A stretch of DNA of 23,184 nucleotides from a virus: the IMG/VR virus record IMGVR_UViG_3300047095_001770, positions 1 through 23,184 of that record; one strand, 5' to 3'. Under the pieces are notes generated by a model. It ran no database searches, was not told the DNA's origin, and was given only the letters and a program-made list of their open reading frames with translations. Within the stretch, counting starts at the first letter, position 1, and each line of letters starts with the position of its first letter. Shown piece after piece: positions 2,964 to 17,905 of this stretch. Both the position numbers and the translations under genes were made by a program.

Positions 2964-3410
2964 TTATTCAGATTCGGGTAGGATCTGAACTACATCAACC
3001 CCTGCCTTTTTTAAGAGGTCGAGACCGGCAGAATCTCTGTATGATTCCGAATAAACTACTCTTTTAATTCCTGCTTGAAGAATTAATTTGCTACACTCTC
3101 TGCAAGGAGACATTGTAACATAAAGAGTAGAACCCTCAGAAGATTGAGTAGATTTTGCAACTTTAGCTAACGCATTAGATTCAGCGTGCAAAACATACCA
3201 TTTTGTTTCATAGTCTAAAAAGTTACCATCTGCATCAAATAAAGGATTTTCACATTCATTTTCAAAACCAGATGGGGTTCCATTATAACCATCAGCTATA
3301 ATAGTGTTATTCTTAACTAAGAGCGCTCCAACTTTTTTACGACGAGCATTCGATAATTGTCCCCATTCTGAGGCCATTTTCATGTATACAAGGTCGTATC
3401 TAGTTATCAT
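2964..3410 (-). CDS. cd: dCMP deaminase
   Basis: This enzyme deaminates dCMP to dUMP, the precursor of dTMP. Counting from the ATG at 3408-3410 the protein has 148 residues. The zinc site is complete: HAE at 75-77 (zinc His and catalytic Glu) and PCREC at 102-106 (two zinc Cys). The conserved substrate-region motif GYNGTPSG lies at 41-48. A TTG two codons upstream could extend it by two residues, but the ATG is preferred. The start overlaps the end of the thymidylate-synthase-family gene by 11 bp, so the two are translated together and act on the same pyrimidine pool. T4 also carries both activities. The family assignment is secure. Confidence 0.95.
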   Translation of the reverse strand: MITRYDLVYMKMASEWGQLSNARRKKVGALLVKNNTIIADGYNGTPSGFENECENPLFDADGNFLDYETKWYVLHAESNALAKVAKSTQSSEGSTLYVTMSPCRECSKLILQAGIKRVVYSESYRDSAGLDLLKKAGVDVVQILPESE

Positions 3411-4284
3411 CGCCAAATTGATTTACGATCCAAGTTAGTAGATCTTCTTTTTCTTGTAATATTAAAATATCATCTTGATCATGTTCGATAAATTCAAAAA
3501 TGTCATTAAACTCTTGTGTAGGGTGGCCTGACATTGAAACAAGATTTGTTTTAATTGAAGGTAATCTAGATGGAACAAATTCTCCAAGCAGCATACGATT
3601 AACTAGATCGTAATGTCTATCATAAACATGGTATGAATTTGCATGATGAGTATAGGTCCCTAGTTCTAGTTCTGGATAAAATTCTTTAAGGTGAGCAAGA
3701 GCCTGCATTTGAAGAGAGCAGAAAAATGCAACATCAGTTGGTGTACCCCAAATAGCATCATTCGATCTCATATAGACACTAAAATTTAGTTTATTATGTC
3801 TAATATGGAAAATTCCATACATTGTGCAAACGAAATCTTTATTACCATTATATTGATGTTCTGGTGTATTAAAATGAAGAATTGCCTGTCTACTATCTTT
3901 ATCTTTAGCTAGGGACGCAACTGCCCATTCATATTGAGTAATTCCACCAAGAGACTTTGGTTTAAATATTAGATTGCCATATGCAGAGTTGGCTGTACCA
4001 TTTGGATTTTGAATCTGCTCCCAAAATTTTGCATATTTTGAAATAAATGCTACATCATTACGACCAGCGTAGTACCATAAAAATTCAGCTGCAATATATT
4101 TAGTCTGAGTAGACCTAGCCATATTAGTATACATGCACTGACTTGGATCAGTGATTTCTAGAGAAACATTTAATAATTCTCTACTTGTAGTTCCTCTTGT
4201 TTCGCACAAGTCACCATTGTCAATTAAATCAATTAATGACTTTTGGTAAGCTTCCGCAAATGATGTTCCTTTGTAAGTATGCAT
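3400..4284 (-). CDS. Thymidylate-synthase-family enzyme with dCMP-type active site
   Basis: This 294-residue protein has the thymidylate synthase fold landmarks: Glu67 in AEFLW, AYG at 101-103, DSRQ at 130-133, nucleophile Cys153 in FVCTMY, RSND at 173-176, Gly180, and HVY at 219-221 for the deoxyribose. In dUMP-specific enzymes an Asn lies 11 residues after that Arg (E. coli R166 and N177). Here the position is Asp184. T4 gp42, the dCMP hydroxymethylase, also has Asp here, with the same 31-residue spacing from its Cys, and shares the strings CT after the nucleophile and MRSND. The likely substrate is therefore dCMP, with the product 5-hydroxymethyl-dCMP or 5-methyl-dCMP. The second of the two phosphate-binding Arg of the DSRR motif is Gln here. 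The family is certain; the substrate is an inference from one key residue plus local resemblance. Confidence 0.85.
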   Translation of the reverse strand: MHTYKGTSFAEAYQKSLIDLIDNGDLCETRGTTSRELLNVSLEITDPSQCMYTNMARSTQTKYIAAEFLWYYAGRNDVAFISKYAKFWEQIQNPNGTANSAYGNLIFKPKSLGGITQYEWAVASLAKDKDSRQAILHFNTPEHQYNGNKDFVCTMYGIFHIRHNKLNFSVYMRSNDAIWGTPTDVAFFCSLQMQALAHLKEFYPELELGTYTHHANSYHVYDRHYDLVNRMLLGEFVPSRLPSIKTNLVSMSGHPTQEFNDIFEFIEHDQDDILILQEKEDLLTWIVNQFGDDN

Positions 4285-11679: not shown

Positions 11680-12266
11680 TATTTAGAATCAAGTTTTTTC
11701 AACAGAGCATCTTTAATATGATCTGCTGTTATTTGATTATTTATATGGGTTGCTAATTCTGTTAAAAATTCTGATTTATTCTGTGAGCTTTTATACATCA
11801 TCTTTAATAGATTTAATGATGGTAGGTTAACTCGTAAATTTAAGTTCAATAGAGATTCTTCAGTGGCAAACATTTCAAAAATGCCAGCTGACTTTGGATT
11901 AGGTTGAACTACTACCTGTGCTGGTACTGGAGCTGCCGCTTGAGTTGTGTCTGGTTTAACTGGATCAATAATTGGTCCTCGAATAGACATACACTCAGCC
12001 TTAGTTAAAGGCTCTTGTCCATCCATAATCGCCATTAATCTAGTGTTAAGATCGTCTAGACTAACAACCATGCCATCTGCAAGTTTTACGGCCATTAAGC
12101 CGCCTCTACTAAATACATCAACTACTCTAGTAACTGTTGAAATTTTAGTATCATCTGGTGTATTTACCCATTGGTAATCTTTGCCCATAATAAAATCTCT
12201 AGTTTGGGCAAGTGCATCAATATCGTACATATATTTGTTTATTTTGTTTTTTATCCATTTTAGCAT
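11679..12266 (-). CDS. Unknown two-domain protein after DNA polymerase half
   Basis: This 195-residue protein has a basic N-terminus (MLKWIKNKINK), a first domain to about residue 105 that includes strands VKLADGMVVSLDD, an Ala/Pro/Gln/Val-rich linker around 108-128, and a C-terminal helical domain. It carries no polymerase motif, so it is not the missing half of gp43. Its ATG overlaps the polymerase stop as TAATG, so translation is probably coupled. I do not recognise the family. Confidence 0.8.
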   Translation of the reverse strand: MLKWIKNKINKYMYDIDALAQTRDFIMGKDYQWVNTPDDTKISTVTRVVDVFSRGGLMAVKLADGMVVSLDDLNTRLMAIMDGQEPLTKAECMSIRGPIIDPVKPDTTQAAAPVPAQVVVQPNPKSAGIFEMFATEESLLNLNLRVNLPSLNLLKMMYKSSQNKSEFLTELATHINNQITADHIKDALLKKLDSK

Positions 12267-13645
12267 TAGTTTGCTGCTTTTTTCGCTGCTTGTTTTAATT
12301 CGGTAATGTGACCTTTAATACTCATACGACGATCGTACATCGACTTTAAAATAACCCTTGCAGCAGAGTCTTTTTTCTTAGTAAAAAGGGTACCATTTTT
12401 TGTATAGATTTCATCTTCTTTAAGAACATGACCAGGTTTCATTTTACCTAAGTATGTATCAGGAGAAATATTGAACTGGATTTGAACGTTAGGGTACATT
12501 GATGAGAAGTCAAAGCACGAAACATATTTATGGTGACCTGGTACTGGTTTACTTACATAAGCGCCTTCATATGTTACTTGTTCAGCCAGATCTCTTTTAT
12601 CTGAAGCCATTTTCTTACCATCACGTAAAAAGTGGCGACACATTAGGGATTCGGTAATAAACACTGCACTAAAGACTTTTGATACATCAACTTGTGCAGT
12701 TTTGGAAATAGCAAATGCTACATCAAGAAGACTTAATTTGTCTTCAATTAGTTTAACTAGCATAACGTCAATTGCGTTATACTTTACGAAGTTTTCAACA
12801 TCTTGCTGAGCTTCCATCATTGATCCATACTCGTGATGTAATTTACTTACGCCAAGAACTAATTGTGAAATATAATCTAACTTATAGTTTTCAACAACTT
12901 TAATTGGTTTAAGGTTCATAAATACTTCAAGATAATCAAGAAGACCTAAGTGAACTGGAGATTGACCTTTACCGATAAGCTTATCACAAACCATAGATTC
13001 CATTGGTTTGATATTAAGGCGCTTACAGCGATTAATTAAGTATTTCCAGTCGAATTCAATTACATTCCAGCCAGTAATAAAAGGAAGTTTAGGAAGTATT
13101 CTATGAAAAAAGGTTGCCATTAAGTCTTCTTCTTTTTCAAAGAACATATACTTAATAGTAAATACTTGACCTTGTGCACTTAAATACTCATTGATTTCAG
13201 ATTCCATTTTAGAAATAGCTGCATCATCGAGCTTTTTCATAGTAGACAAAATGTAGGTCACATTATCTGGACCACAAAATGAAATTAAGTTTACTGGCAT
13301 GGCAGCCTTAGCTGGATCAGGGAACTCGTTTGAAGTTAACTGAATCTCGATATCGAGAAAGTATTTCTTAGGATTATGATCAGAATAGATTTGAGCAAGC
13401 TCTTCTTCAGAAAAACGGGTTTGAATAAGCTCTTCGATTCTGAATCGGCTAAGCCATTTACTTTTACTTTTGTCAACAAATTTATTATCCCAATTTCGAT
13501 ATTCTGATGGACGACCTGTCAATTTCCAATTGAATTGATCTGCATCGTGGATATGCTTTACTGCATATGCAACATTACCCGCTTCATCATAATATGAAAC
13601 TACTAATTTAGAATCGTCTTGCTTGAATTCTGAGCTTATTATCAT
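12266..13645 (-). CDS. 43A: DNA polymerase gp43, N-terminal and exonuclease half (split gene)
   Basis: This 459-residue protein is the first half of a family B replicative polymerase. The proofreading exonuclease is complete: ExoI DIE (D98, E100), ExoII NVIEFD (N194, D199) and ExoIII YNAID (Y289, D293). Polymerase motif A follows, DFSSMYPN (379-386). The chain ends KQAAKKAAN at the start of the fingers, before motif B (KxxxNSxYG) and motif C (DTDS). T4 gp43 has 898 residues. No reading frame in this window encodes the missing motifs, so the second half must lie elsewhere. Split gene 43 is known in some T4-like phages. The alternatives are an intron with a distant exon or a sequencing frameshift, but no continuation exists in any frame nearby. 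Confidence 0.92.
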   Translation of the reverse strand: MIISSEFKQDDSKLVVSYYDEAGNVAYAVKHIHDADQFNWKLTGRPSEYRNWDNKFVDKSKSKWLSRFRIEELIQTRFSEEELAQIYSDHNPKKYFLDIEIQLTSNEFPDPAKAAMPVNLISFCGPDNVTYILSTMKKLDDAAISKMESEINEYLSAQGQVFTIKYMFFEKEEDLMATFFHRILPKLPFITGWNVIEFDWKYLINRCKRLNIKPMESMVCDKLIGKGQSPVHLGLLDYLEVFMNLKPIKVVENYKLDYISQLVLGVSKLHHEYGSMMEAQQDVENFVKYNAIDVMLVKLIEDKLSLLDVAFAISKTAQVDVSKVFSAVFITESLMCRHFLRDGKKMASDKRDLAEQVTYEGAYVSKPVPGHHKYVSCFDFSSMYPNVQIQFNISPDTYLGKMKPGHVLKEDEIYTKNGTLFTKKKDSAARVILKSMYDRRMSIKGHITELKQAAKKAAN

Positions 13646-13674: not shown

Positions 13675-14163
13675 TTAATTTGTTCCAGTGGAACCAAATC
13701 CGCCAGAACCTCTTTCTGACTGAGCTGGAAATACTTCTTCTTCACTTTGGCATTCAATTAATTTGGCTTTAATAATTGGAGTAAGAATAAACTGAACTAT
13801 TTTATCCCCTGGCGAAATTAATTGATCGGTTGTTCCACAATTATAGTGGTGAAGGTGAATCTCTCCTTGGTAATCGCAATCTACTACTTGGGCGCCAACT
13901 TGGAGTCTCCTTTTTGTAGCAACACCGCTTTTATTAAATGCGATAAGGGCTGTATGCAGAGGAAGCCTTGCTCGAATGCCGCTTGGGATTAAAACCGATT
14001 CCCCCGGTTCAAGAAAAACTGATTCAAAATCATTTGGAACAAAAAAGTCAATTCCGGCTGATCCTGGAGTTCCATATTCGGGAGTTTTTACGTCACCGAT
14101 CTTAATAAATCTAATTAATTCTCCTCTAGATAGAGGTTTTGGAGTTCTTTTCATTGCATTCAT
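13675..14163 (-). CDS. dut: dUTPase
   Basis: This trimeric enzyme hydrolyses dUTP to dUMP, keeping uracil out of DNA and feeding thymidylate synthesis. All five motifs are visible, counted from the ATG at 14163 (162 residues): GSAGIDFF (34-41), NKSGVA (77-82), a motif III with catalytic D95 and Y98 in VVDCDYQG, PGDKIVQ (118-124), and the Gly-rich C-terminal RGSGGFGSTG (151-160). The open frame runs up to 14244, but the extra 27 residues are hydrophobic and AT-encoded and lie over the likely promoter, so the later ATG is chosen. An ATG at 14154 is also possible. It is the first gene of the 11.6-kb minus-strand operon. Confidence 0.93.
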   Translation of the reverse strand: MNAMKRTPKPLSRGELIRFIKIGDVKTPEYGTPGSAGIDFFVPNDFESVFLEPGESVLIPSGIRARLPLHTALIAFNKSGVATKRRLQVGAQVVDCDYQGEIHLHHYNCGTTDQLISPGDKIVQFILTPIIKAKLIECQSEEEVFPAQSERGSGGFGSTGTN

Positions 14164-14190
14164 GTTGAGTAATTGGATTTTTAGTAGAAT

Positions 14191-14216
14191 CTTATACTGT
14201 CTTAGATATACTAAGA
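14191..14216 (-). promoter_or_regulatory. Candidate promoter with 17-bp dyad before dUTPase operon
   Basis: On the minus strand a TATAAG box (14191-14196) lies about 28 bp before the dUTPase start. Three bases upstream of it is a perfect 6-bp inverted repeat with a 5-base spacer: TCTTAGATATACTAAGA on the plus strand, 14200-14216. No good -35 hexamer is found at 17 bp, which would suit a middle-type promoter that depends on a bound activator, or an operator. Confidence 0.4.
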
Positions 14217-14280
14217 TCTTTACGATGATAAATAATGATAGCAAAGGACAATCTAGACCAAAATCATGAGTCCTAAGTTA

Positions 14281-17590: not shown

Positions 17591-17905
17591 TTATCTTTCC
17601 CCTGGTTCAAGAAAAGTTGGAACCGAATCTGTTACAATTTTAGCAATAACTTCATGCGCAAGAACTACTAAATAGTTTTCGCCATTCCATTGCATATCAA
17701 TTCCAGCATGGCGTTGATAGATTACTTTATCGCCTGGTTCCAATGGAATAGGTCTTTCCATTCCGCCGCCTACTGAAATTACAGTTCCACTATTGGAACG
17801 CTTTCTGGTATCAGGCGGAAGAATTATACCAGTTTCAGTTTTTTTATTTTGTTCATCGGGTTGAATAACAACTCGATCATAAATTGGGATTATTGGTGAA
17901 TTCAT
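17591..17905 (-). CDS. GroES-like co-chaperonin (functional analogue of T4 gp31)
   Basis: This 104-residue protein is a heptameric GroES-type lid for the host GroEL chamber. It has the family start IYDRVVIQPDE, a mobile-loop region TETGIILPP (the IIL would bind GroEL) and the roof and core segments GTVISVGGG, PGDKVIYQ and YLVVLAHEVIAKI. About ten extra C-terminal residues (VPTFLEPGER) extend beyond the usual 95. T4 gp31 fulfils this role for capsid folding but is much diverged; this one is closer to bacterial GroES. The start overlaps the upstream gene as ATGA, indicating coupling. Confidence 0.9.
   Translation of the reverse strand: MNSPIIPIYDRVVIQPDEQNKKTETGIILPPDTRKRSNSGTVISVGGGMERPIPLEPGDKVIYQRHAGIDMQWNGENYLVVLAHEVIAKIVTDSVPTFLEPGER

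Follow-up and report, generated by a model that had tools for sequence, protein, structure and literature searches.

Phage T4 divides the work between one enzyme for dTMP and another for cytosine, and enzymes of SPO1-like and Vi01-like phages have dUMP hydroxymethylase activity. For the T4 cytosine enzyme, gp42 (PDB 1b49, 1b5e, 6a9b), passages of PMC6400193 assign cytosine recognition and N3 protonation to Asp179, contrast Trp83 and Leu143 of E. coli thymidylate synthase (TS) with T4 Val85 and Asp145, and have Asp145, Ser94 and Tyr96 take part in the handling of water. According to passages of PMC5175136, enzymes for cytosine substrates have Asp at the base-recognition position and those for uracil have Asn, and K133 and A176 turn the CMP hydroxymethylase MilA (PDB 5jnh, 5b6d, 5jp9) toward CMP. 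A TS-superfamily 5-hydroxy-dCMP synthase is described in a portion of PMC13390438, and we infer that the phage dCMP hydroxylase AfhB (PDB 9iqu, 9iqc) is of the same kind. In the MetaGPA study, positions 177 and 147 were the top two markers of modified versus unmodified contigs among 433 TS sequences, Asp177 lying mostly in modified contigs (excerpts of PMC8670742).

Here we describe a TS-superfamily enzyme encoded in a virus fragment of 23,184 bases, the whole of which is called the window below. Judged from active-site residues, kinship, gene neighbourhood and predicted fold, the protein (294 aa from an ATG start; Table 1) is very probably a dCMP 5-hydroxymethylase like T4 gp42, and cytosines in the DNA of this phage are probably modified. 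Since Asp177 is already published as a mark of cytosine-modified phages, going by the same excerpts, the novelty is modest: the window enzyme is a well-supported new member, from a little-studied phage group without a close match in the phage collection. No publication describing this group was found among titles and abstract starts, nor was a close cultured phage; matches to the gp41-like protein amounted to 2,692 records, all below 60% identical (31-34% in the 15 matches listed).

Table 1. Coordinates of the features discussed, in window positions.
Feature	Position	Strand	Basis
dCMP deaminase	2964..3416	-	phrog_174, 1.7e-52; start codon taken mechanically
TS-superfamily enzyme, predicted dCMP 5-hydroxymethylase (T4 gp42 type)	3400..4284	-	Pfam, PDB matches, residues, tree, fold
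Asp184 codon, base recognition (E. coli TS N177 / T4 D179)	3733..3735	-	alignment
Cys153 codon, catalytic nucleophile (C146 / C148)	3826..3828	-	alignment
Asp150 codon (E. coli L143 / T4 D145), would activate water in hydroxymethylation	3835..3837	-	alignment and passages of papers
Arg132-Gln133 codons (E. coli R126-R127), partner-subunit phosphate site	3886..3891	-	alignment
Trimeric-type dUTPase	13675..14244	-	Pfam, PHROG; mechanical start, possibly further in

Active-site residues, conservation and kinship

The ORF matches Pfam Thymidylat_synt (81.9 bits, cut-off 24.3) and PHROGs 5131 and 160, the latter being the best PHROG for T4 gp42 itself; Pfam, alignment and fold comparison agree on a TS fold, common also to gp42, with the catalytic Cys and Glu present. 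The first-pass annotation had placed Asp184 at the position of the Asn that selects dUMP and had ascribed an Asp to T4 gp42 there. Both statements hold in an alignment of 31 rows that includes fetched E. coli ThyA and T4 gp42: Asp184, and no Asn, sits exactly on Asn177 of E. coli TS and opposite D179 of gp42 (RSCDVFLGLPFN versus RSNDAIWGTPTD, equal in length). The spacings it gave are likewise reproduced, at 20 residues from Cys153 to Arg173, 11 from Arg173 to Asp184 and 31 from Cys153 to Asp184.

At TS positions 92, 94, 143, 147 and 177 the window enzyme carries S, Y, D, T and D, which are the residues of T4 gp42, while the four canonical TS rows have P92, L143, H147 and N177; the last three are all missing from the window enzyme. 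Equivalents of the T4 water pocket (Asp145, Val85, Ser94, Tyr96) are D150, I91, S100 and Y102, and T4 Cys, Glu60 and Asp179 have counterparts too. Ile91, at TS position 83, is close to the T4 Val without being identical, and the position is a weak marker, canonical TS of three relatives carrying R, F and F there, not W. Overall identity to gp42 is about 28%, over proteins of 246 aa in T4 and 294 aa in the window. Enzymes of the gp42 kind lack the C-terminal tail with which TS closes over folate. In the alignment the window enzyme is without TS-type C-terminal residues, but its C-terminus continues for about 60 residues of a different sequence, which could be modelled and aligned to MilA.

The replacement of one phosphate-site Arg by Gln, also pointed out earlier, is real: R132-Q133 lie opposite E. 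coli R126-R127, so that of the two partner-subunit phosphate Arg of the T4 kind one is retained and the other, T4 R124, is Gln. Given that Q127 (TS numbering) occurs in 19 of 27 hydroxymethylase-like rows (11/11 in the window family, 8/16 elsewhere), including all four Asn177 phage rows, this Gln is a group trait and no defect, and a pair of phosphate Arg is not taken as defining the T4 kind; the Gln is common among such enzymes and without special meaning. Asp143 is present in 27 of the 31 rows, four Asn177 phage rows among them, and Leu143 in the four canonical ones. SPO1-like and Vi01-like dUMP hydroxymethylases share D143 with the window enzyme and differ from it in Asn177 and in their uracil substrate; the rows of Goe2 (SPO1-like) and S115 (Vi01-like) belong to what we take to be hydroxymethyl-dUMP phages. 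Because Asp143 extends to the Asn177 rows, it looks like a general mark of hydroxymethylase-like enzymes, with Asp177 marking those that act on cytosine, activity being documented, in the parts of the papers cited here, for T4 gp42 and MilA only among the 27 Asp143 rows.

A scan of viral contigs returned 271 related stretches, of which the best 80 (58-100% identical) were retained; together with the window and LR756500 they give 82 sequences, 53 of them distinct. Asp stands at the TS-177 position in all 53, and C153, R173, D176, D184, D150, S100 and Y102 are invariant in 25 aligned rows. The family is under purifying selection, with dN/dS of 0.02-0.06 in the five pairs computed, dS exceeding 1 in two of them. 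The 53 distinct sequences, the invariant column and the low dN/dS together argue that Asp184 is not due to chance.

Sequence matches in PDB are led by MilA (4e-24), T4 dCMP hydroxymethylase (dCH, 3e-18) and the best TS (1e-16), a mutant T4 dCH chain (6a9a, 3.7e-16) following just below the latter. An AlphaFold model of the window enzyme (pLDDT 90, pTM 0.91) has MilA as its top structural match (Z 30.4, 2.3 A, 276 residues), with TS at Z of about 22-23. Fold by itself brings T4 dCH no closer than TS (Foldseek rank 45, TMq 0.62), and it is not among the 50 VIA matches listed. In the tree, the window enzyme falls inside a 16-row branch (97/99), entirely D177, with T4 gp42 and Xp15, at whose T4 gp42 the program warns of long branches. 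D177 is also what the window enzyme shares with TS homologues of the cytosine-modified MetaGPA contigs (excerpts of PMC8670742) and with those of Xp15 and of Acinetobacter MD-2021a.

Predicted reaction and rival readings

We infer the following course of catalysis. Cys153 would attack C6 of dCMP, Asp184 would recognise the cytosine 4-amino/N3 edge and protonate N3, and Glu67 would aid the activation of methylene-tetrahydrofolate. A water activated by Asp150 would then attack the C5 methylene, in place of hydride, yielding 5-hydroxymethyl-dCMP. A phage or host kinase may carry this product on to the triphosphate for DNA synthesis, and genomic cytosine would be replaced, wholly or partly, by hydroxymethylcytosine (hmC), possibly with glycosylation next.

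A dCMP methylase of the Xp12 kind would recognise cytosine alike and transfer hydride to give 5-methyl-dCMP, and the N-to-D change alone is enough to turn TS into a dCMP methylase (Liu & Santi 1992, as reported in a passage of PMC8670742). The window enzyme nevertheless has Asp at L143, where T4 dCH uses Asp145 for water activation according to the passages cited above, and Ile at W83, where T4 has Val85, besides lacking the TS-type C-terminal residues; methylation is improbable on this comparison with TS and T4 dCH. The earlier suggestion that the phage may make modified cytosine and not dTMP is supported as regards the cytosine substrate, and is refined to hydroxymethylation over methylation. 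A flavin-dependent 5-hydroxy-dCMP synthase like AfhB, supplying glycosylated 5-hydroxycytosine, would have superfamily, D177 and cytosine substrate in common with the window enzyme, and 9iqu/9iqc do appear among its sequence matches (1.4e-5) and fold matches (Z 22.7 and 23.4). Yet the AfhB-type rows, PEi20 (E 4e-133 against 9iqu) and PWKp16, carry E143, N169, V173 and F209, a pattern absent from the window enzyme, which like T4 gp42 has D, D, G and Y; with MilA and T4 dCH being much better sequence matches, we regard such an activity as very improbable.

Pfam and PHROG names would make the protein an ordinary dUMP-using TS, for which dUMP could come from the dUTPase and dCMP deaminase within the window. 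This is scarcely credible in view of the loss of N177, H147 and L143, of a best NCBIfam TS model that scores 61.7 bits where the cut-off is 327, and of a separate canonical TS in seven of the 11 related records. These points, with the other active-site residues and the PDB and tree placement, bear out the warning against naming it 'thymidylate synthase'. MilA, the closest solved protein in fold and sequence, shares the equivalents of Asp143, Thr147 and Asp177 and might suggest a CMP hydroxymethylase acting on the ribonucleotide. At the places of MilA K133 and A176, however, the window enzyme has R126 and S167 (TS numbering), as in deoxy-specific enzymes, so dCMP, not CMP, is the predicted substrate; its neighbourhood is DNA metabolism, unlike the antibiotic pathway of MilA, and a CMP enzyme is hardly to be expected here. 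A dCMP 5-hydroxymethylase remains our preferred reading.

Neighbouring genes and nucleotide supply

The D-type enzyme is found in all 11 related records (ten from IMG/VR plus LR756500) and a second, canonical TS in seven of them, the three inspected showing L143, H147 and N177; as in T4, these relatives have a TS separate from the cytosine enzyme. Canonical TS was not found in the other four, of which three are 116-131 kb long and the fourth is LR756500, the only record in which ThyX was found. LR756500.1 is an uncultured phage of 462 kb whose D-type enzyme is 50.5% identical and which holds ThyX and no canonical TS match.

T4-like core genes surround the window enzyme, as in T4, and an adjoining dCMP deaminase sets the window phage apart from T4 and is shared with Xp15 and MD-2021a. 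Those two also have a carbamoyltransferase gene nearby, whereas a Pfam scan of 19 of the window's 25 ORFs showed none. The deaminase and hydroxymethylase genes overlap by up to 17 bases (mechanical start), and the deaminase would compete for dCMP, converting it to dUMP. It adjoins the D-type enzyme gene in 79 of 81 loci, the two exceptions being a cut locus (L067) and LR756500.

One slot, flanked by the N-terminal DNA polymerase gene on one side and the tail sheath gene on the other, is occupied by a trimeric dUTPase in the window and its near kin G002 and by a gp56-type enzyme in records G005 and G008, the neighbours being in identical order. Over the 81 loci, the polymerase-adjoining slot contains the gp56-type marker in 11, dUTPase in nine and both in none, while 48 loci end before reaching it. 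The remaining 13 show the polymerase gene and neither marker; because about 300 bases or less precede that gene in all of them, the slot is cut there, and two (L065 and L072) lie in gp56-holding records. Near relatives with the slot covered (four loci at 91% or more) have dUTPase and no gp56-type enzyme. The exchange is recent, as the hydroxymethylases of a dUTPase locus (L048) and a gp56 locus (L058) are 93% identical.

Family search places a gp56-type dCTPase/dUTPase in 6 of the 11 related records (phmmer matches of T4 gp56 in two relatives, 9e-23 and 3e-22) and PF00692 in four; PF08761, the dimeric dUTPase, has matches in five, none above cut-off. Unlike T4, the window phage and its near kin have no gp56-type enzyme in the slot: the 23-kb window, itself a fragment, showed none, and G002 has no phrog_173 match anywhere in its record, slot coverage being absent from G001. 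T4 gp56 cleaves dCTP and dUTP (database record note); the gp56-type proteins of the relatives may retain just the dUTPase activity, and the window's trimeric dUTPase is by eye an ordinary phage dUTPase sequence.

Relatives also differ from T4 in showing no match to a T4 gp1-type dNMP kinase (DNMK) in any of the 11 related records, which may be fragments. A guanylate-kinase-like core protein is conserved in the three relatives compared and could serve in its place.

The family B DNA polymerase itself is split into two genes, at 12266-13645 of the window (exonuclease and motif A, Pfam DNA_pol_B positions 30-147) and at L114:8705-10135 (positions 144-237). The second lies about 38 kb away in G002, and ORF matches put the halves 43-45 kb apart in G005 and G008; a split DNA polymerase is reportedly named in a paper on a Pseudomonas jumbo phage (PMC6892783). 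The window further contains a GroES-like gene (Cpn10, Pfam; 17591-17905), and an ORF of G002 (121702-123294) resembles GroEL by eye. A protein common to three relatives (L106:7339-8316) has a histone-deacetylase-type domain in G002 (PF00850, 2.5e-16).

Glycosyltransferase candidates and the dCTP question

Among the ORFs of three relatives, phmmer (E 0.01) found no T4 alpha- or beta-glucosyltransferase, gp1 or dam. Glycosyltransferases of family GT2 are present in 10 of the 11 records and GT4 in five, neither occurring in G002. A GT-B glycosyltransferase (L192:4001-5104; model pLDDT 79) is a core protein of the relatives, found in all five group records above 200 kb, of which G005 and G006 seem to be near-duplicates; it was not found in the five shorter records or in W01. 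Its best fold match is the glycosyltransferase 6eji (Z 15.9), followed by T4 beta-GT (Z 14.9, 4.2 A, 278 residues) and T4 alpha-GT (Z 14.6, 4.3 A, 300 residues), some matches, T4 beta-GT included, being tied within 1 with unrelated glycosyltransferases. The protein has no sequence link to T4 beta-GT (hhalign probability 0.2%), nothing in the phage collection searched, no PDB sequence match and no clear PHROG family, and its connection to hmC is speculative, that of a candidate.

A rather unlikely picture would have uncultured T4-like jumbo phages make hmC without the dCTPase on which T4 depends, either because the slot-swapping trimeric dUTPase-like protein removes dCTP or because their DNA is mixed C/hmC, with the GT-B glycosyltransferase perhaps decorating hmC. 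The exchange of dUTPase and gp56, close to the enzyme, opens a way to test how dCTP is excluded, if it is. With the predicted dCMP 5-hydroxymethylase, an uncultured group of T4-like jumbo phages joins those likely to carry modified cytosine, a modification that bears on restriction, CRISPR and the sequencing of such phage DNA.
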